Virus record (IMG/VR): IMGVR_UViG_3300008448_000371
Location: 1-32,252 of that record
Reading direction: 5' to 3' (one strand)
Length of the DNA: 32,252 nucleotides
Source of the DNA: a virus
Both the position numbers and the translations under genes were made by a program. The notes below the pieces were generated by a model, which did no database searches, was not told where the DNA came from, and saw nothing but the letters and a program-made list of their open reading frames with translations. Below, piece by piece: positions 5,657 through 22,573 of the stretch (its first letter is position 1; each line of letters opens with the position of its first letter).

Positions 5657-8071
5657 ATGAATTTATTAGCAAAATATTTAGTAGAGTCTATTTTAAAAGA
5701 GGAGGAAAGCGGCATTACCGTATTAATGCCTGGTGGATTTAAACCACCACACGGAGGCCACTTAGAACTAGCTAAAAGATATGCAGATCTTCCACAAGTA
5801 TCAGAAGTTCAAATATTAATAGGACCTGCAACTAGAGACGGAATTACAAGAGACCAGTCTCTAAAGATATGGAAGCTGTTATTAGCAGGAGCACCAAACA
5901 TAAAAGTGATACCAGTGCTAGAAGATAATCCACTACTGGCTGCATACAAGTTTATTGAAAAGGCTGAACCAGGTGTTTATGCTTTAGCATCATCCAACAA
6001 AGGTGGTGATTATGAAAGAGTAAAAAAGTTTGTTGAGGGACACAGCGAGTCAGGAAAATACCATAGAGCTGGTGTTGATGTGGTAGAGTTACCTGTAGAT
6101 GTAGCTCCACTACCATATGCAAATCGTTCACCAAAAGCTGAGAAATACGTCCCAGGCAAAAGTGAAAATGGTAAAGGTGTAAGTGCTTCTATTTTAAGAA
6201 AGGATTTGGCTAACAAAGACTTTGACGCATTTAAAACAAATTATCCAAATGTTCCTTCTGAGCAGGTGCTTAAAAGCATTTACAATATTTTAACAAAAGA
6301 GATAAACGAAAGTAAGCTACGTGCATTTGACTTTGATGATACGCTAGTAAAAACAAATGCTAAGGTTTACGTAACAAAGAAAATTACAGGACGAAAGTTA
6401 GTATTGACTCCAGGCGAATACGCTGTTTATAAGCCTGATGAAGGAGATACTTTTGACTTTAGTGATTTTGAATCACCAATCAAAAATGCAGTAGAACTAA
6501 AAAAATATACAAACATAATGCGTAAAGTTCTTCAATCACCAGACAGAGATAGAAGAACAGTAGTTTTAACAGCTAGAGCTAATCCATCAGTTGTATATGA
6601 CTTTTTGATGAAGTTAGGCATTCGAGTACCCGTTATAGCAGTGGGTAGCTCTGATCCAATGAAAAAAGCTGAGTGGATAGAAAAGCAGATCAAGGATGGT
6701 TATGATGATATTTATTTCTTAGATGATTCGGAGAAAAATATTAGAGCTGTTGAGACTTTGAAGACAAAGTATCCTAACGTTAAATTAAAAACTCAATTAG
6801 TACCTAGAGAAGAACCAATGAATGAAAATAAAATAATAACTGAAGGTGGAGCAGCTGGACACTTAGCACATCCATACGAGGATTATGACCTAACATTTGC
6901 TGATGTTGTAGCAATGATACAAGCTGCGTTAAGTGGAAAAATTGAATCAGCTCAAGAGAAGCTAGATGGACAAAATCTAATGGTAACCTACAAAGATGGT
7001 CAAGTTAGAGCAGCAAGAAATAAAGGTCAGGTTAAGAATATGGGTGCAAACTCACTAACAACGAAACAAATAGCTGATATGTTTGCTGGTAGAGGTCCTA
7101 TCCGCAACGCATTTGTAGAAGCAATGGCTGACCTAGAGGAAGCTATTAACAAGCTAACACCTGCACAAAAAGAAAAGTTTTTTGAGAATGGGAAAAAGTT
7201 TTTAAACTTGGAAGTACTATATCCAGAAACAGCAAATGTAGTTCCTTACGGAGCAGCACAATTAAGGTTGCATCACATTAAAGAATATGATGAAGCTGGA
7301 AATGTTGTAGGAGAGGATATTGAGAGTGCTAAGCGTTTAGAAGGTGCATTAAGACAAGTAGAAGCACAAAACCAAAAAACTTACGAGATAAGAATAACAG
7401 ACCCTTTAACAATAAAGAAATCATCTGATTACAAGCAACAAAGAGATGAGTTGGTTGGAATGTTAAAAGATGTAATGAAAAATTACGGCTTAAAAACTGG
7501 AGACAAGATGAGTCTTTATTTTGAGAAGTGGTGGCGCAACTATATAACCCAAACAGCTAAACAATATAACTACGACATACCAGCAAACGTATTACAACAG
7601 CTTATCAATAGATGGGCATTTGATATGAAAGATGTGAATATTAAAACAATTCGCGATGGTATTGACAACGAAGAATTTAAAAATTGGGTAGCAACTTTTG
7701 ATAAGACAGAAGTTTTAAAACAACGAAAAATAGCAACAAGACCAATTGAAAATTTATTTTTAAAACTTGGTGTATACACTCTAAAAAATATTGAAAACCT
7801 TGTGGCTTTAAATCCAAACGATAGTGTTCGTAAAATGAGAAAAGATTTGAAAGACAGTATTGCAAAGATTAAAGCGACGGCAAATGACCCACAATCTGGT
7901 GATGTAGCAATGCAATTCTTAAAACGTGAATTAGAGCGTTTAAAAGACATTGGTGGATTTGATGCAATATTACCTACAGAAGGACTTGTTTACAAGTACA
8001 ATGGAAAGCTTTACAAATTAACAGGAGCATTTGCACCGGTAAATCAAATATTAGGATATTTAAAATTTTAA
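5657..8071 (+). CDS. Three-domain protein: HxGH nucleotidylyltransferase, HAD phosphatase, KxDG ligase-like nucleotidyltransferase
   Basis: An 804-residue multidomain enzyme. Residues 20-205 form a cytidylyltransferase/NMNAT-like domain with GGFKPPHGGH (His32, His35) and a distal VSASILR matching the family's SxTxxR-type motif at 175-181. Residues 219-385 form a HAD phosphatase: DFDDT at 225-229, LTAR at 304-307, Lys336/337 and LDD at 355-357. Residues 397-804 contain EKLDGQN (Lys435), RAARNKG at 451-457 and FLNLEVLY (Glu519), the motif I and III pattern of covalent ATP-dependent RNA/DNA ligases. Phage proteins combining such domains are, as I recall, known in marine T4-like phages but lack an assigned role. 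Both linkers carry potential prohead-protease sites (INE|S at 218, ITE|G at 396), and the N terminus has a helix ending LKE at residue 15. RNA repair or NAD metabolism are possibilities. The domain calls are good; the substrate is unknown. Confidence 0.75.
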   Translation: MNLLAKYLVESILKEEESGITVLMPGGFKPPHGGHLELAKRYADLPQVSEVQILIGPATRDGITRDQSLKIWKLLLAGAPNIKVIPVLEDNPLLAAYKFIEKAEPGVYALASSNKGGDYERVKKFVEGHSESGKYHRAGVDVVELPVDVAPLPYANRSPKAEKYVPGKSENGKGVSASILRKDLANKDFDAFKTNYPNVPSEQVLKSIYNILTKEINESKLRAFDFDDTLVKTNAKVYVTKKITGRKLVLTPGEYAVYKPDEGDTFDFSDFESPIKNAVELKKYTNIMRKVLQSPDRDRRTVVLTARANPSVVYDFLMKLGIRVPVIAVGSSDPMKKAEWIEKQIKDGYDDIYFLDDSEKNIRAVETLKTKYPNVKLKTQLVPREEPMNENKIITEGGAAGHLAHPYEDYDLTFADVVAMIQAALSGKIESAQEKLDGQNLMVTYKDGQVRAARNKGQVKNMGANSLTTKQIADMFAGRGPIRNAFVEAMADLEEAINKLTPAQKEKFFENGKKFLNLEVLYPETANVVPYGAAQLRLHHIKEYDEAGNVVGEDIESAKRLEGALRQVEAQNQKTYEIRITDPLTIKKSSDYKQQRDELVGMLKDVMKNYGLKTGDKMSLYFEKWWRNYITQTAKQYNYDIPANVLQQLINRWAFDMKDVNIKTIRDGIDNEEFKNWVATFDKTEVLKQRKIATRPIENLFLKLGVYTLKNIENLVALNPNDSVRKMRKDLKDSIAKIKATANDPQSGDVAMQFLKRELERLKDIGGFDAILPTEGLVYKYNGKLYKLTGAFAPVNQILGYLKF

Positions 8072-8389: not shown

Positions 8390-8901
8390 TGGATTATCAT
8401 GTTATGACCTCAAACAAGCACACAGTTCGTAAAGAAGGTGATGTTTGGGAAGAAAATGGAAAAACTTGGACCATAAAAAATGGTATCAAGAAATCAACCG
8501 GAAAACTCGATTCATATAGAAGAGAGTTAATTATGCCAATTGCATGTCCAAAATGCAAATGCGCAATGAAAAGCACAGTACATGAGCCTTTTTGGAAATT
8601 GTACAAGATGTGTCTCAATTGTGTGATTGACATGGAACATGAGATTAGAAAGGCTGGAAAGTGGGAAGAATATGAGCGTAAGAAAATAGAAGCAAACGCC
8701 AATAGCTTTTACAAAGATTTAGAACAATATGTAGAAGAGTTTATAGGCGTTCAATCAGCTGACAGCTTTGTGACTGAGGATGGTGCAAAAGAAAGTTGGA
8801 TAGACAATACAAAACAAAAAGCAGAAGAGATAGGAAAACAAGAACTCGATCAACTGCAAAAAGTAATAACTGATTACACAAACAAAAAGACTGATAAATG
8901 A
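8389..8901 (+). CDS. Zinc-ribbon hypothetical protein (170 aa)
   Basis: Function unknown. Two cysteine pairs, CPKC (Cys53, Cys56; Cys58 follows) and CLNC (Cys75, Cys78), form a likely treble-clef or zinc-ribbon site. It is preceded by a two-stranded region (WTIKNGIKKSTGKLD) and followed by a long charged helix. The layout ACPKC...WKLYKMCLNCVIDMEHE resembles small zinc-binding proteins of marine T4-like phages, as I recall. The start codon overlaps the upstream stop (TAATG) and its stop overlaps the next start (ATGA), so translation is tightly coupled. An internal Met at residue 6 is an alternative start. It could bind nucleic acid or be a structural cofactor. Confidence 0.65.
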   Translation: MDYHVMTSNKHTVRKEGDVWEENGKTWTIKNGIKKSTGKLDSYRRELIMPIACPKCKCAMKSTVHEPFWKLYKMCLNCVIDMEHEIRKAGKWEEYERKKIEANANSFYKDLEQYVEEFIGVQSADSFVTEDGAKESWIDNTKQKAEEIGKQELDQLQKVITDYTNKKTDK

Positions 8902-9557
8902 CAAAATTATCATCAATTCTAAAAGAGGTAGAAAATAAAGCAAATCTTGCAAAGCTAGACCAAGCAATGCAAAGTGGTTTATCTGCAATGGCCAGTGAGT
9001 TTTCTTCACAAAAGGATGCCTTAAAACAAGATGTAGCACAAGCTGATATAGAAATCAACGAATCTGTAACAGCATTAACCATTATAGGTGCATTCCTGGC
9101 AGCTCCAAAATTATTAGAACTTATTGCAAAAGGTTTTGGAAAGCTTATATCTGTGTTTCAATCGATAATTAAGCCAGGCCAAGCAAAAACTGAAGAAGGG
9201 CAGATCGCAGCTGTAGAAGCTATTGTACATTTTACACACAAGTGGCACAAGATGTATATTAAAGGAATAAAGGGCCTACTAAAGATTACAGGATTATTTG
9301 CAAAAGCTGGAATTAAAAAGGAGGTTGATCAACAAAGAGCAGCGGAGTTGGTGTTTTATACTATTGTAGCTGGCCTTGCTGTTTATTCTGGATTTGGAGC
9401 AGTATCAGCGTTCAAATCAGGTCTGGCTAAGGTAGCAGCAGCAGGTGGAACCGCAGCTGGAGATTTTGCTTTAGGATCTTTTGAAGTAGCAATGGCTTCT
9501 ATCAAGAGTGGTGAGCTTAGTGAATTTTTAGGAAAGGTCGGTCTTAAGACAGCTTAG
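8898..9557 (+). CDS. Putative virion or membrane-associated protein with two hydrophobic helices (219 aa)
   Basis: Not recognised by name. The N-terminal ten residues, MTKLSSILKE, resemble the short leader removed from T4 internal head proteins, with a Leu-x-Glu at 8-10, although Val follows where Ala or Gly is usual. Residues 57-80 and 149-172 are hydrophobic enough to be membrane segments, separated by an amphipathic basic stretch (residues about 110-142). The C terminus is Ala/Gly-rich. A packaged protein that inserts into the host membrane during DNA entry would fit, but this is inference only. The ATG overlaps the upstream stop (ATGA). The gene ends just before a late-promoter-like motif. 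Confidence 0.55.
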   Translation: MTKLSSILKEVENKANLAKLDQAMQSGLSAMASEFSSQKDALKQDVAQADIEINESVTALTIIGAFLAAPKLLELIAKGFGKLISVFQSIIKPGQAKTEEGQIAAVEAIVHFTHKWHKMYIKGIKGLLKITGLFAKAGIKKEVDQQRAAELVFYTIVAGLAVYSGFGAVSAFKSGLAKVAAAGGTAAGDFALGSFEVAMASIKSGELSEFLGKVGLKTA

Positions 9558-10555: not shown

Positions 10556-10960
10556 ATGAAACTAATAAACCTAATACCGCTAAGAGAGGCAGATGAGCAA
10601 TCAAATCCAGAATTAATTGCTACTCCCTATTTCCGTGAATTTCAAACATCTCACGGCTACAAACCATTATTTAAGTACATTGGTACAAAGGGTGAGCAAA
10701 TGATATTTAAAGCTGATGTTACCGATTTTGGTATGTTAGATCTTATTGTAACAGATGCTCAGCTATTTGCAAAAGTAACTGAAAAAGAGGCTACTTTTGG
10801 AATTGTATATACCTTAAGTGGCTTAGAGCAGTTCGATGCAACAGTTTGCAAAATGAAACAAAAAGACGGTCAAATAGAGCATATCATGTTTGATAATAAA
10901 GATAAGAAAAACTTTGACGCAAAAACAACAAATTTTGTAGACCTTCTTGATAAGCAATAA
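10556..10960 (+). CDS. Hypothetical protein with putative prohead-protease leader (134 aa)
   Basis: The first twelve residues, MKLINLIPLREA, contain Leu9-Arg-Glu11 followed by Ala12, matching the T4 gp21 cleavage rule (Leu/Ile-x-Glu before Ala/Gly). The same peptide LIPLREA occurs in the gene at 18813 next to the prohead protease, with different codons. The remaining 120 residues are a mixed alpha/beta domain without known motifs: YFREFQTSHGYKPLFKYIG, a hydrophobic core at about 60-95, and an acidic or Lys-rich end. By analogy with T4 internal proteins it may be carried inside the head. The mature function is unknown. Confidence 0.6.
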   Translation: MKLINLIPLREADEQSNPELIATPYFREFQTSHGYKPLFKYIGTKGEQMIFKADVTDFGMLDLIVTDAQLFAKVTEKEATFGIVYTLSGLEQFDATVCKMKQKDGQIEHIMFDNKDKKNFDAKTTNFVDLLDKQ

Positions 10961-11643: not shown

Positions 11644-11961
11644 ATGAAAAAAGCACAAACTAAACAAGAGCGTTTACTTCGCCAAGAAGTTCGCAACCTA
11701 ATAGCAAAAATCCTAAAAGAGGAAGAAGAATCAGGTGCAGAAAACCAAAGCTCTGAAGAAGGTGAAGCTAAAGAACAAGACAGCTCAGCTGAATTAGATG
11801 AGTTTAAAGCTCGCTTTATACAAAAGTATAGAAGCATTGAAGGTGCTATGGATATGGAGACTGTAGTAGACACTTTTTCAAGTATATTTGATTCATTTGG
11901 AATGTCTAATGAGCAAAAAATACAAGTATTAAAAGCGATCAGAAACAATATTGTAAGATAA
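11644..11961 (+). CDS. Small charged hypothetical protein (105 aa)
   Basis: The N-terminal 26 residues form a basic amphipathic helix (QERLLRQEVRNLIAKILKE) ending in Leu24-Lys-Glu26, similar to other leaders in this window. An acidic low-complexity linker (residues 27-50, Glu/Ser rich) follows, then a compact helical domain (FKARFIQKYRSIEGAMDMETV...NEQKIQVLKAIRNNI). It has no Cys or membrane segment. The leader, linker and helical-domain layout fits a small head protein processed by the prohead protease, but the residue after Glu26 is Glu, not the usual Ala or Gly. Its TAA overlaps the next ATG by one base. Confidence 0.55.
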   Translation: MKKAQTKQERLLRQEVRNLIAKILKEEEESGAENQSSEEGEAKEQDSSAELDEFKARFIQKYRSIEGAMDMETVVDTFSSIFDSFGMSNEQKIQVLKAIRNNIVR

Positions 11962-17862: not shown

Positions 17863-18459
17863 ATGAACAAGGGATTACTTATAGATTCAATCGGTGCATT
17901 AACCGTTACTCCAGAGCAGATTAATGAATCCATGAATAAAAATGGAGGTCGATTAATATTAAGCGGAGTAATGCAGCGTGCAAAAGCTACAAATCAAAAC
18001 GGACGTGAGTATCCAAAACACATACTTATGCGTGAAGTTGACAAATATAAGAAAGTGTTTGTAGCTGAAAAGCGTGCATTAGGTGAATTAGACCATCCAG
18101 ATAGTGCAGTAGTAAACTTGTCAAATGTTTGCTTAAATGTATTAGACTTATGGTGGGAAGGTGATGATGTAATAGGTAGAATAGAAATACTGCCAACACC
18201 ATCAGGAAACATTGCTAAAAACTTACTTGGAGCAGGTATTCGTTTAGGAATTAGCTCAAGAGGGATGGGTAGTGTAAAAAACATTGGTGAAGGCAAAGTA
18301 GAGGTTCAAGACGACTTTGAGATAGTTTGCTGGGACTTAGTAAGCAACCCATCAACACAAGGTGCATTTATGAATAACCTGAATGAGTCGGTAGGTGCTA
18401 AGACAAACAAATTTTCAAAAGTAAACTCACTAATCAGTGATATAATATCGGTAATGTAA
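17863..18459 (+). CDS. 21: Prohead core protease (gp21-like)
   Basis: Serine protease of the T4 gp21/herpesvirus assemblin-like fold, which degrades the scaffold and trims head proteins after Leu/Ile-x-Glu during maturation. The 198 residues are near the T4 length of 212. Putative catalytic residues are His78 in GELDHP and Ser131/132 in LGISSRGMGS; Asp158 in CWDLVSNPS lies in another family-conserved motif. The early part (RLILSGVMQRAKATNQNGREYP) matches the family's substrate-pocket region. It sits directly upstream of small core-like genes, the scaffold and capsid genes, its expected targets. Confidence 0.92.
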   Translation: MNKGLLIDSIGALTVTPEQINESMNKNGGRLILSGVMQRAKATNQNGREYPKHILMREVDKYKKVFVAEKRALGELDHPDSAVVNLSNVCLNVLDLWWEGDDVIGRIEILPTPSGNIAKNLLGAGIRLGISSRGMGSVKNIGEGKVEVQDDFEIVCWDLVSNPSTQGAFMNNLNESVGAKTNKFSKVNSLISDIISVM

Positions 18460-18460
18460 T

Positions 18461-18826
18461 ATGGGAATGAAGCTAAAAAATATAGTTGAAAATATCAACA
18501 ATAAATTAACGAAGGAAGAAAAATCTATTTTCTTACAAGAGGTTGCTAAATACAATGAGTATGGTTCAGCAATCTACAGATCTGAAGATTTAAAGAGAGT
18601 TGCAGAAGCAATATCCAACTTAGTAAATACTGCAGAAAGAGTAACTTTAGAAGAGACTCAAGATTGGTTTGATGAGATTACAGTTAAGCGTAATTTAAAA
18701 ACTATTAAAGACAGCACAAATCAATTCAATAAGACTGTTAGTGAGATTAGTAAACTACAACAACGTTTAGAATCTTTATACGAAGAAATCGGACACAATC
18801 TTAGCAGATATTATGAAATTAAGTAA
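18461..18826 (+). CDS. Small helical protein (121 aa)
   Basis: Not recognised. It starts one base after the protease stop; Met3 is an alternative start. The sequence is a string of amphipathic helices (IVENINNKLTKEEKSIFLQEV, LKRVAEAISNLVNTAERVTLEE, and a C-terminal coil with NKTVSEISKLQQRLESLYEEI). It contains no Cys or membrane segment. Placement between protease and scaffold resembles small prohead-core genes of T4, but this is positional evidence only. Overlaps the next gene by 14 bases. Confidence 0.55.
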   Translation: MGMKLKNIVENINNKLTKEEKSIFLQEVAKYNEYGSAIYRSEDLKRVAEAISNLVNTAERVTLEETQDWFDEITVKRNLKTIKDSTNQFNKTVSEISKLQQRLESLYEEIGHNLSRYYEIK

Positions 18827-19145
18827 GAATAATGCAACTTTAATTAAGCTGGTTGATTTAATACCGCTTCGTGAAGCAGAAGAGGCTGGAGCAGAAGAGG
18901 AAAATCCATTTGGAGGTGCCGATGATGCCGAAAAAAAGGATTCTGGTGAAGAAGAAAAAGAACCAGCTAAGAGTGAAGCACCTGCAGGAATAATGGTTAA
19001 GTTTAACCGCTCAGCCGTAAAGCGTTATAATGATCAACCATTCTTAGGAAACCAAGGACAGGTTGCATCAATAGATAAGAACGGTATAGTGGTTAAAATG
19101 CCTAACGAAGTCGAAATCCTAGTCAACTTCAGCGATATAATCTAG
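18813..19145 (+). CDS. Small acidic head protein with LIPLREA leader (110 aa)
   Basis: The N-terminal 21 residues end LIPLRE, followed by AEEAGAEEE; Leu19-Arg-Glu21 before Ala22 is a textbook gp21 cleavage site. The same LIPLREA peptide lies at the start of the gene at 10556. An acidic low-complexity stretch (residues 22-55) leads to a small basic beta domain (VKFNRSAVKRYNDQPFLGNQG to VNFSDII). It could be a prohead core protein like T4 gp67/68 or a packaged protein. The start is inside the upstream gene by 14 bases. A terminator hairpin follows 22 bases after its stop. Confidence 0.6.
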   Translation: MKLSKNNATLIKLVDLIPLREAEEAGAEEENPFGGADDAEKKDSGEEEKEPAKSEAPAGIMVKFNRSAVKRYNDQPFLGNQGQVASIDKNGIVVKMPNEVEILVNFSDII

Positions 19146-19300: not shown

Positions 19301-20299
19301 ATGAACAAATTGTTAAAAGACGCAATCGCAGATGCAAAAGCTGTGCGTGAAACAGCACTTGCAAACGCAAAACTTGCTCTAGAAGAAGCGTTCGCACCAA
19401 AACTACAATCAATGTTATCTCACAAAATTAAAGAAGAGATGATGGATGATGAAGAAGAAACTAAAGTTGAAGGTGAGGAAATGTCGGATGATGAGCAAAT
19501 GGAAACTCGCATGAAAGAGTTAGCTGGTCTAGCTGAAGAAGAAGACGAGGAAATGGGTTCTGAAGAAGACTTCGAATCCGAAGAAGAAATGGGTTCTGAA
19601 GAAGAAGAAATGGGCTCAGAGGATGAAATGGGTTCTGAAGAAGAAATGGGTTCTGAAGAGGACTTTGAATCTGAAGAAGACTACTCTGACGAAGATGAGG
19701 ACTTAGAAGAAATCTTACGTGAGTTAGATGCTGAAGAGTCTGAAGAATCAGAAGAAACTATGATGGAAGCTGAAGAGGAAGAAGAGGAAAAAGAAGCCGT
19801 AGACGAAGGTGAAGGATCAGAAGAAGATGAAGAAGTTAACTTAGACGAGTTAATCCAAGCTTTACGTGAAGAAGAGGGTGACGAAGAAAAAGAAGAGGAA
19901 GAGCCTGTTGAAGAAGCTAAGAAGATGAAGAAAATGAAAGAAGACTTAGAAGAAGCTTACAGTGTTGTAAAATTCTTACGTAGCAAACTTTCAGAAGTAA
20001 ATTTATTAAACGCAAAACTTCTTTATGTAAATAAGTTATTCCGTAAGAATGGATTAACTGAAGCACAAAAAGTAAAAATCGTTGAAACCTTTGACCGTGC
20101 AAAATCAGTTCGCGAAGCTAAGTTAGTTTACGCAACCTTATCAGAGTCAATGGTGTCAAAACCAGTAGCTCCAAAAGTATCAACCAAAAAAGCAGTAACT
20201 GAAGGTTTTGCTTCTAAAGCCAGCAAGAAGACAAACATTATTACTGAAGGTGATAAGCAAGTTAACAGATTTAAAGAATTAGCTGGTATTATTAAATAA
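19301..20299 (+). CDS. 22: Prohead scaffold core protein (gp22-like)
   Basis: The main scaffold, assembled inside the prohead and then digested by gp21. The ATG at 19301 (MNKLLKDAIADAKAVRETAL) is preferred to a TTG at 19250 because the added 17 residues look like leader and the ATG sits after an A-rich tract. The product is 332 residues (T4 gp22 is 269). Residues about 75-210 are extremely acidic, with tandem EMGSEEE repeats. A helical C-terminal third includes KMKEDLEEAYSVVKFLRSKL. Likely gp21 sites include LEE|A at 29 and IITE|G at 316. The C-terminal RFKELAGI echoes RMKELAGL before the acidic repeat. Directly followed by the capsid gene. Confidence 0.88.
   Translation: MNKLLKDAIADAKAVRETALANAKLALEEAFAPKLQSMLSHKIKEEMMDDEEETKVEGEEMSDDEQMETRMKELAGLAEEEDEEMGSEEDFESEEEMGSEEEEMGSEDEMGSEEEMGSEEDFESEEDYSDEDEDLEEILRELDAEESEESEETMMEAEEEEEEKEAVDEGEGSEEDEEVNLDELIQALREEEGDEEKEEEEPVEEAKKMKKMKEDLEEAYSVVKFLRSKLSEVNLLNAKLLYVNKLFRKNGLTEAQKVKIVETFDRAKSVREAKLVYATLSESMVSKPVAPKVSTKKAVTEGFASKASKKTNIITEGDKQVNRFKELAGIIK
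19550..19680 (+). repeat. Tandem acidic coding repeat in the scaffold gene
   Basis: Five copies of a GAAATGGGTTCTGAAGA-like unit encode E-M-G-S-E. Two flanking copies extend to MGSEEDFESEE, which suggests duplication of a block followed by expansion. All copies stay in frame. Confidence 0.75.
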
Positions 20300-20313: not shown

Positions 20314-21915
20314 ATGAATAATTTATTCGAAAACATCAAAACCGAAAACAGATCTGCCGAGAACAGAGCTTTAGTTAGCAAATGGGGTAAGTCAGGTTTG
20401 TTAGAAGGCTTAAAGAACGAGCACAAAGGTACAGTTGCTGTTCTATTAGAAAACCAAGCAAAGCAATTAATTAAAGAAGGTTCTGCTACAACTGCTGGTA
20501 CCGCTGGTGCTGGATTTGAGCAATGGACTGGTGTTGCTTTACCATTAATCCGTCGTATCTTCGCTGAGATCGCGGCTAAAGAATTCGTTAGCGTTCAACC
20601 AATGAACTTACCATCAGGTCTAGTATTCTACTTAGATTTCAAATATGGTACTAACAAGAGGCCTTTTGGATTCGATCCAACTGGTAAAAACCAAACAGGT
20701 ACTTTACAAGGTATCACTTCACAATCTGGTGCTCCTACAGACGGTTTATATGGCGCAGGTCGTTTTGGATATACATTCAACACTAACACCTCAGCTTCAA
20801 TAACTTTTTCAACAGGTTCAATCAGCGTTGCTGACGTAAACTACGATGGTGCTTACACAAGCTCATTATCAAACTACAGATTAGTAACTGCTACTTTCCC
20901 TGCTGATTCAGACATTGATGCTGTAAGAGCTATCACTGTTGTTTCAGGTTCAACTCCAATCGCTATTGAGTCTGCTTTCACTAAGAAAGTTGGATCAAAC
21001 GTACAATTCATCGTACTTGCATCTCAATTAGGTGGTTTAACTACTGCTGGTGCATTCACTGGTGAAATCAAATACGTACACCAACCTACTAACGATGACC
21101 GTGGTGATTTCGAAGCTAAGCCAGTATCAGCAACTAACCGTAACGTTGACACAGACTTAAACATCCCTGAGATTGAATTACAAATGCGTTCAATTCCAGT
21201 AACTGCTAAGACTCGTAAGTTAAAAGCAAGCTGGACACCAGAATTCGCTCAAGACTTAAACGCTTACCACTCAGTAGACGCTGAAGCTGAATTAACAGCA
21301 ATGTTATCTGAATACGTATCAATGGAGATCGACTTAGAAATCTTAGATATGTTAATTTCAGCTGCTTCAACAACTGAATACTGGTCAGCTAAAGTTGGTC
21401 AAGAGTGGAATACAGGTACAAACGCATTCACTACTTCACAATTCACTGGTCAAGCTTATATCCAAGGTACTTGGTTTGCAACTTTAGGTACTAAATTGCA
21501 AAAAGTAAGCAACGAAATCCACAGAAAAACTTTACGTGGTGGTGCTAACTTCTTAGTAACTTCTCCAACTGTATCAACTATCCTTGAATCAATCCCTGGA
21601 TACGCTGCTGATACTGATGGTGAAAAAATGAAGTATGCAATGGGTGTACAAAAAGTAGGTGCTTTAACAAGCCGCTACCAAGTATACAAGAACCCATACA
21701 TGACTGAAAACACAGTATTAATGGGCTTCCGTGGTTCTCAATTCCTTGAGACAGGTGCTGTATACGCTCCATACATTCCATTAATGTTAACTCCACTTGT
21801 ATATGATCCGAACAACTTTACACCTAGACGTGGTGTTATGACCCGCTACGCAAAAGTTGTTACCCGCCCCGAATTTTACGGAAAAGTATACGTAGCTGAT
21901 TTAGGCATAGTATAA
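20314..21915 (+). CDS. 23: Major capsid protein (gp23-like)
   Basis: HK97-fold major head subunit, 533 residues (T4 gp23 has 521). Typical T4-family landmarks are an N-terminal propeptide ending QLIKE at residue 55, followed by GSATTAG, the expected gp21 cut; VQPMNLPSGLVFYLDFKYG at about 94-112; and TRKLKASWTPEFAQDLNAYH in the middle. The C-terminal TRYAKVVTRPEFYGKVYV is also typical. Pro-rich codons and regular usage suggest high expression. It starts 14 bases after the scaffold stop on the same transcript and ends at a strong terminator 24 bases downstream. Confidence 0.96.
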   Translation: MNNLFENIKTENRSAENRALVSKWGKSGLLEGLKNEHKGTVAVLLENQAKQLIKEGSATTAGTAGAGFEQWTGVALPLIRRIFAEIAAKEFVSVQPMNLPSGLVFYLDFKYGTNKRPFGFDPTGKNQTGTLQGITSQSGAPTDGLYGAGRFGYTFNTNTSASITFSTGSISVADVNYDGAYTSSLSNYRLVTATFPADSDIDAVRAITVVSGSTPIAIESAFTKKVGSNVQFIVLASQLGGLTTAGAFTGEIKYVHQPTNDDRGDFEAKPVSATNRNVDTDLNIPEIELQMRSIPVTAKTRKLKASWTPEFAQDLNAYHSVDAEAELTAMLSEYVSMEIDLEILDMLISAASTTEYWSAKVGQEWNTGTNAFTTSQFTGQAYIQGTWFATLGTKLQKVSNEIHRKTLRGGANFLVTSPTVSTILESIPGYAADTDGEKMKYAMGVQKVGALTSRYQVYKNPYMTENTVLMGFRGSQFLETGAVYAPYIPLMLTPLVYDPNNFTPRRGVMTRYAKVVTRPEFYGKVYVADLGIV

Positions 21916-22012: not shown

Positions 22013-22573
22013 ATGGAAAAGCATTATATATACAAACTAACAAGTCCAAGTGGAAAAGCGTACATTGGACGAACAACAAACTTTAATAGCAGGTTAACAA
22101 GACATTTACACAAAGCAAGAAGTGGCTACCAACATCCACTATATGATTCAATTCGAAAACATGGTTGGGACAACTTTATAAAAGAGGTTGTAGCTGAGGT
22201 GGTGGGAGATGACATAGCGTACGAAACAGAGCTGCTATTCATCAAACTATTTGACACTGTAAACAATGGACTTAACCTACAGTATAATACAAAGGATGGA
22301 GGAGATGTTTGGGCAAATAGAAAAGACACCTCAGAATACATGGCTTTTGTAGAAAAGATGAAGTCTATAAACAACCAATCTAAGATGCATGGTAAAAAGC
22401 ACTCCGACCAAGCAAAAGCAAAGCAAAAAGCAGCAGCTGTTGGTAGATATAGCTTAGACTGGTTTATACAAAGACATGGGTTAGAAGAGGGTACTAAAAA
22501 ATACGAAGAACGAAGATTGTTTTTAAAAAATCGCAATTTAAAGAAGGATGGGAGTGGGTGGTTTGTGTCATAG
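22013..22573 (+). CDS. GIY-YIG homing endonuclease (Seg-like)
   Basis: Free-standing DNA endonuclease of the GIY-YIG family, 186 residues. The catalytic motif appears as YIY at residues 5-7 and AYIGRT at 16-21, with Arg27 in FNSRLTRH and a downstream YETELLFIK carrying the likely metal-binding Glu. The C-terminal half contains KMHGKKHSDQAKAKQKAAA, a NUMOD-type DNA-binding segment common in T4 Seg enzymes, and a basic end. Neighbours are not interrupted: it sits between the capsid terminator and phoH. It probably promotes its own spread by cutting a related genome lacking it. The cleavage site cannot be read from this window. Confidence 0.88.
   Translation: MEKHYIYKLTSPSGKAYIGRTTNFNSRLTRHLHKARSGYQHPLYDSIRKHGWDNFIKEVVAEVVGDDIAYETELLFIKLFDTVNNGLNLQYNTKDGGDVWANRKDTSEYMAFVEKMKSINNQSKMHGKKHSDQAKAKQKAAAVGRYSLDWFIQRHGLEEGTKKYEERRLFLKNRNLKKDGSGWFVS

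Follow-up and report, generated by a model that had tools for sequence, protein, structure and literature searches.

The 804-residue protein encoded upstream of the head genes of this aquatic T4-like phage is probably an internal protein of the T4 type that has turned into a polyprotein, with a leader that would target it to the head, where it would be packaged and cut by the prohead protease. The first-pass annotation of the gene had proposed a packaged polyprotein, and that interpretation is supported; no virion mass spectrometry stands behind it, however, and cleavage, packaging, ejection, and the activities and substrates of the enzymes are inferred. The DNA analysed here (the window) is an IMG/VR fragment of 32,252 bases, in which genes for terminase, portal, gp21-like prohead protease, scaffold and major capsid protein are clustered at 12.8-21.9 kb. 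The polyprotein gene lies upstream of the terminase, portal, protease and capsid genes. The capsid protein is ~54% identical to those of Flavobacterium phage immuto and Microcystis phage Mel-JY01. The gene and its domains are as follows:

5657-8071, plus strand: polyprotein gene, 804 aa, comprising a leader, HxGH nucleotidylyltransferase, HAD phosphatase and ligase
5711-6298, plus strand: HxGH nucleotidylyltransferase domain, about residues 19-214, assigned from its fold, PHROG 395 and motifs
6311-6796, plus strand: HAD phosphatase domain, about residues 219-380, assigned from PHROG 415 and motifs
6845-8068, plus strand: ligase (covalent nucleotidyltransferase) domain with the predicted mature N-terminus GGAAGH, assigned from an AlphaFold model and structure matches

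A single uninterrupted open reading frame runs from the ATG at 5657 to the stop at 8071, and the active-site motifs are intact in all three domains. The chain is indeed the fusion of three enzymes in 804 residues that had been described, and the motifs at its joints are real. The first domain has, over residues 19-217, the PPAT/NMNAT fold in structure comparison (VIA Z 13-14, best 13.9, rmsd 2.6-3.1 over 150-168 residues) and matches PHROG 395 cytidyltransferase in a profile search. Its HGGH at 32 (H32-H35) and an ISSTxxR-like SASILR at 176 are set on a Rossmann-type fold. We assign it as a PPAT/NMNAT-like HxGH nucleotidylyltransferase, leaving unresolved whether the substrate is NMN, pantetheine or another compound. 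For the second domain, a profile search with the whole chain returned PHROG 415 polynucleotide kinase (E 3.9e-7, residues 207-367), and the HAD motifs FDFDDT 224 (DxDxT), VVLTAR 302 (TxR), KK 336 and FLDDS 354 (DD) are all present.

The third domain carries the ligase motifs EKLDGQN 434, AARNK 452, NLEVLYP 517, PTEGLVYK 773 and LYKLTG 785, and the K435xDG, E519, E775GxVxK and K787 region are invariant or nearly so across relatives. Modelled alone, residues 397-804 reach an AlphaFold pLDDT of 93.8. The top structural matches are the RNA ligases NgrRnl, T4 Rnl1 and Rnl2 and tRNA ligase; they are modest (VIA Z 7-8.5, rmsd 4-5) and extend over ~180-200 residues, or half of the domain. We place the domain in the covalent nucleotidyltransferase (polynucleotide ligase) superfamily; the fold does not give RNA as the substrate. 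No usable Pfam match was obtained for the window protein, no peptidase family was matched, and neither Pfam nor PDB gave a meaningful sequence match for the ligase part; a profile hit between the ligase and ribosomal protein S6 at E about 0.005 was dismissed as chance. Prevotella Lak phages were rejected as fusion relatives, as they match the transferase domain only; the matching frame stands alone, is 207 residues long and lacks a leader.

The strict protease motif, which we define as [LI]xE/[SGA] with the slash at the predicted cut, occurs in the chain only at residues 10, 218, 396 and 495. The leader and the two joints are:

5657-5701, plus strand: leader MNLLAKYLVE/SILKE/E, a candidate capsid-targeting sequence, with possible cuts after residue 10 (5686) or 15 (5701)
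6302-6313, plus strand: joint-1 site I-N-E/S, predicted cut after residue 218 (6310/6311)
6833-6847, plus strand: joint-2 site I-I-T-E/G, predicted cut after residue 396 (6844/6845)

Both joint motifs, I-N-E before Ser at 218 and I-T-E before Gly at 396, are present as the first-pass annotation had claimed. It had also ended the leader with LKE at residue 15; LKE/E is found there, and LxE at this position is invariant or nearly so across 14 close relatives, but LVE/S at residue 10 better fits both the T4 length of 10 residues and the strict motif. In the AlphaFold model of the full chain (mean pLDDT 82), values below 50 are confined to residues 1-6, 8-17, 216-233, 271-282, 294-297 and 381-401, which puts sites 10, 15, 218 and 396 in a disordered leader or disordered linkers; the expectation that 218 and 396 would lie in exposed linkers and not in folded cores is met in this model. 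The LEE/A noted at residue 495 is indeed inside the ligase domain. It was rejected as a cut site, being part of a confident helix (481-498, block pLDDT above 95) and not conserved, as relatives have T, I, A, S or N in place of its Glu. Shuffling residues 18-804 placed a strict site in both linkers by chance in 0.16% of 100,000 trials. This figure assumes that the linkers were fixed beforehand, which is fair because both joints had already been named in the first pass; it is not strong by itself, and the shortness of the motif is a caveat on all site matches.

The head proteins of the same phage provide a calibration of these sites:

17863-18459, plus strand: prohead protease, gp21-like (PHROG 207, E 4.9e-57), with its own sites QINE/S (after residue 22) and LNE/S (after residue 175)
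19301-20299, plus strand: acidic scaffold/core protein, between the protease and capsid genes, with a C-terminal site IITE/G (after residue 316)
20314-21915, plus strand: major capsid protein (PHROG 138, E 7.8e-75), with a propeptide site LIKE/GS (after residue 55)

In full, these sites read PEQINE/S near the N-terminus and LNE/S near the C-terminus of the protease, QLIKE/GSATTAG in the capsid protein and NIITE/GDK in the scaffold, and they are conserved in up to fourteen relatives. The protease site varies there as QINE, QITE, QIHE or QVNE before S or A, the capsid site as L(I/V/L)KE/(G/A)S, and the scaffold site as IITE, VLTE, IISE, ILSE and others. Joint 1 (INE/S) is identical to the protease site and joint 2 (IITE/G) to the scaffold site, these two being presumed cleavage sites of the head protease. 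The specificity of T4 gp21 is L/I-X-E, and a 10-residue CTS suffices for the packaging of foreign proteins (PMC9026906). On this comparison of sequences, the phage is predicted to encode a gp21-type protease acting after [LI]xE, the cutting itself being inferred. Between the major capsid gene and a PhoH-like ATPase reading frame, a GIY-YIG-like endonuclease frame (KLTSPSGKAYIGRT) was recognised by eye only at 22013-22573.

Joint 2, the start of the ligase, could be followed through the largest number of relatives. A profile scan found at least 584 ligase relatives encoded in viral contigs, 80 of which were kept, and a DNA pattern scan added more. Alignment on the ligase start GGA[AY]GH gave 171 distinct joint contexts, or 118 after removal of redundancy; the relatives are not independent samples, and the Gly-Gly carries no weight as evidence, since the search pattern contained it. 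Of the 171 contexts, 133 have Glu immediately before GGA[AY]GH (position P1), 36 have Met and 2 have Cys; the corresponding numbers for the 118 are 95, 21 and 2. In the cultured Microcystis phage Mel-JY01 the joint reads IIAE/GG, for which a mature ligase starting with GGLGGH is predicted. P3 is Leu or Ile in 115 of the 118 non-redundant contexts and at 130 of the 133 Glu sites of the distinct set. The site at 396 is kept as [LI]xE/GG in nearly all of the 95 relatives with Glu, and [LI]xE has a frequency of 78% at the joint versus 0.5% per position elsewhere. Positions P5-P25 are near random (entropy mostly 3.6-4.1 bits, with 3.0 at P6, over the 118 contexts), so that the site stands conserved in an otherwise saturated linker. 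In the profile-based set the Gly-Gly is missing only from L004, a distant fusion that lacks the E/GG site. Two ligase joints, in L218 and L145, have Cys at P1 (LLVC and LLTC) and no Shine-Dalgarno element.

The conservation might instead reflect an ordinary cytoplasmic multi-enzyme fusion, in which xxE/GG is kept as part of the structure or active site of the ligase and its likeness to a protease site is accidental. P4 is mostly Leu (93/118), and part of the joint conservation could therefore be structural; P4-P2 as a whole are mostly Leu or Ile and strand-like, and GGA[AY]GH is itself highly conserved. Against this, the joint segment has no confident structure in the model of either the whole chain or the ligase alone, and a fold constraint does not predict a P1 that is only Glu, Met linked to a Shine-Dalgarno element or, twice, Cys.

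The Met joints bear directly on this question. All 21 of them in the non-redundant set carry a Shine-Dalgarno hexamer, versus 2 of the 95 Glu joints; at the Met joints nine bases separate AAGGAG, or a near match to it, from the ATG (for example AAG GAG TTA TTA CTT ATG GGA GGA). An element of this type precedes 25 of 25 joint Mets; elsewhere in the chains, only 8 of 1744 internal Met codons have one. The protease site is therefore replaced at these joints by a second translation start, and the expectation that the site at 396 would be conserved is fulfilled, as 95 of 118 relatives have Glu and nearly all of the others (21) the Shine-Dalgarno element and ATG. An initiator Met before Gly is normally removed, so both routes lead to the same GGAYGH N-terminus. 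On a ligase tree made without the joint columns, the Glu/Met state changed at least seven times, with six changes forced by starred branches. Such an interchange is hard to explain by structure alone, and we infer that a free N-terminus of the ligase is what is selected, even though the Met lineages retain LLL before the Met, as a cytoplasmic fusion with a structural motif would allow. The Met-lineage phages that were checked (G012, G013 and G017) retain a prohead protease with the usual self-site. Internal initiation alone would yield a ligase without a leader, and packaging of that product is therefore not implied in Met lineages.

Fewer sequences bear on joint 1. The site at the start of the HAD domain is INE/S in the window, LDE/G in L017 and LNE/D in L118 and L119, the four sequences whose HAD domain is intact, so the site at 218 is conserved as had been anticipated, with the caveats that HAD-bearing sequences are few and P1' is variable (S, G, D, D). 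In 14 of 16 close relatives, the end of the transferase domain is followed by [LIV]xE at a distance of 20-25 residues. In the marine chains it is mostly found 6-7 residues before the first transferase strand, after a leader and after an internal module alike. This presence of such sites at other joints also counts against the cytoplasmic fusion. Upstream of the ligase the modules vary, from none to HAD, HAD plus an LPGG module, LPGG alone, or large marine chains with a P-loop kinase, a second transferase type and others.

The LPGG...P.(S/A)F module is found between transferase and ligase in L008, L011-L013, L015, L016, L019, L118 and L119, either in place of the HAD domain or after it; by eye the module is LETM1-like, and it is unidentified. 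The marine chains L021, L033, L039 and L040 (1200-1540 aa) combine transferase and ligase with a P-loop kinase (Zeta_toxin/AAA_33) or a Zn_protease-like module, the Zn_protease match coming from one relative, L040. The cultured Flavobacterium phage immuto encodes a 907-aa protein (L007:5164-7887) with an HxGH transferase followed by VVKE/GSSGT, which resembles the capsid cleavage site LIKE/GSATT.

At the other end of the chain, M1, L4, L8 and E15 of the leader are invariant in the 14 close relatives, and E10 is present in 13 of them. A leader of the type MN.L[TA]K[YW]LVESILTE is found before the transferase (the window and L071), before a kinase (L039), before an uncharacterised module (L033) and, in L172, directly before the ligase (MNKLTQFLVDGILNDPKPTLNE/GG). 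T4 IPII and IPIII start with MKTYQEFIAE/A, which is closely resembled by the leaders of stand-alone ligases (MKLFTYQEFLNE, MKIYNNFEQFITE, MNKLYTYEEFLTE and MKFLKSYEEFLNE); a stand-alone transferase in contig L159 has the leader MKHVKLFEQFISE/A. The same contig contains seven consecutive, otherwise mostly unrelated genes (L159:5262-8942) with leaders like those of T4 internal proteins (MKHVKLFEQFVNE/A and variants). This run includes the ligase and a separate HxGH transferase and is, to judge from its sequence, an apparent operon of head-packaged proteins. That the enzymes fused in the window are found elsewhere as separate proteins, each like a T4 internal protein, is the strongest support for packaging, and the chain itself is predicted to bear a T4-type capsid-targeting leader ending in a gp21-type site. 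With T4-like targeting leaders on stand-alone relatives added to the evidence from the joints, we regard an ordinary cytoplasmic fusion as unlikely.

A chain packaged by its leader from which the leader alone is removed, with the domains staying linked and the joint motifs being relics of the leaders of once separate genes, is very unlikely: relatives with separate genes and leaders do exist, the joint MNENKIITE/GG resembles the end of such a leader (MKFLKSYEEFLNENLILE/GG in L005) and the joints do not keep the full T4-like leader length, but relics should decay like the linker, whose entropy approaches 4 bits, and P1 and P3 have not decayed; where the Glu is lost, the Shine-Dalgarno element and ATG have been gained.

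Other reading frames in the window have similar starts. Two different small proteins (10556-10960 and 18813-19145) share the leader end LIPLRE/A(D/E)E, which probably marks a second kind of capsid-targeting leader in the phage. The frame at 11644-11961 has ILKEEEESGAEN near its start, like the ILKEEESGI of the fusion, and the frame at 8898-9557 starts with MTKLSSILKE; both may encode core or packaged proteins.

For the packaged polyprotein, we propose the following course of events. The short N-terminal leader, like a T4 capsid-targeting sequence, would bring the chain into the prohead core, where the gp21-like protease would cut after the Glu of [LI]xE at residue 10 and/or 15 of the leader, at joint 1 (218/219) and at joint 2 (396/397). 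The predicted products are the nucleotidylyltransferase, the HAD phosphatase and a ligase beginning GGAAGH. Once released, the enzymes would stay with the DNA and be ejected into the next host. There they would most likely act at once, phosphatase and ligase on nucleic-acid ends and the transferase on a nucleotide cofactor such as NAD; some relatives would add a P-loop kinase to phosphatase and ligase. Sister lineages would obtain the same ligase N-terminus from the internal Shine-Dalgarno element and ATG, with removal of Met before Gly.

A role in RNA repair or NAD recovery on entry, as raised in the first pass, is only suggested, on the basis of domain identity. That RNA-end repair is the main role of the ligase part is a tentative proposal, about which we are slightly more doubtful than convinced. 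The inferred pairing of phosphatase and ligase, joined by a kinase in certain relatives, would suit the healing and sealing of nucleic-acid ends, for example of tRNAs cut by host defence nucleases, and the transferase may serve to restore NAD or a different cofactor. More broadly, we lean towards the view that a widespread aquatic T4-like phage family ships modular head polyproteins, in which one leader is followed by any enzyme modules with protease-cut joints, and the site at the ligase joint can be swapped for an internal start that gives the same Gly-Gly N-terminus. If these polyproteins are modular in this way, the swap implies a difference between lineages: some would supply the enzyme packaged, others would provide it in the cytoplasm as well.

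If the proposal is true, a single leader allows tailed phages to deliver several enzymes as a genuine polyprotein that the capsid protease itself matures, and scanning for [LI]xE at domain joints becomes a predictor of virion cargo that needs nothing but sequence. It would also suggest that phages benefit, on entry, from the repair of nucleic-acid ends and from cofactor chemistry. The exchange of cut site and internal start amounts to a natural experiment of an unusual kind; its outcome suggests that selection keeps the free ligase N-terminus. Neither enzyme polyproteins cut by a prohead protease nor virion proteomics of Mel-JY01 or Immutovirus were reported in the literature searched, which left out many subscription papers and all preprints.

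Among known systems, the ligase shares motifs I to V with the polynucleotide ligases Rnl1, Rnl2, NgrRnl and tRNA ligase, the first of which belongs to the Pnkp/Rnl1 RNA repair of T4, and the profile match and motifs suggest a relation of the HAD phosphatase to the PNK family. Unlike those four ligases, the window ligase has a large helical insert, and unlike the T4 Pnkp/Rnl1 system, the window has no kinase module. The window protein resembles the T4 internal proteins IPI, IPII and IPIII and Alt in that a short leader at its N-terminus ends with a predicted protease site; the [LI]xE gp21-type protease, the location in the head-gene region and the variable cargo are shared as well. The T4 internal proteins are single and trimmed mainly N-terminally, whereas the chain described here has several enzymes behind a single leader and further sites at its internal joints. 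Polyvalent proteins, as described by Iyer et al. 2017 (PMC5512222), likewise combine multiple dissimilar enzymatic domains on a single phage chain near virion genes. According to that paper, they are thought to be packaged and injected, and its authors compare them with viral polyproteins as an analogy only (PMC5512222). Release of domains is ascribed there, for some members, to an embedded peptidase, whereas the sites in the window match a separate prohead protease; a set of transferase, HAD and RNA-ligase-like domains with an interchangeable cut site and start codon was not found in the portion of the paper available (PMC5512222). The concept proposed here combines two established elements: targeting of the T4 type followed by gp21 processing on the one hand, and polyvalent proteins on the other.
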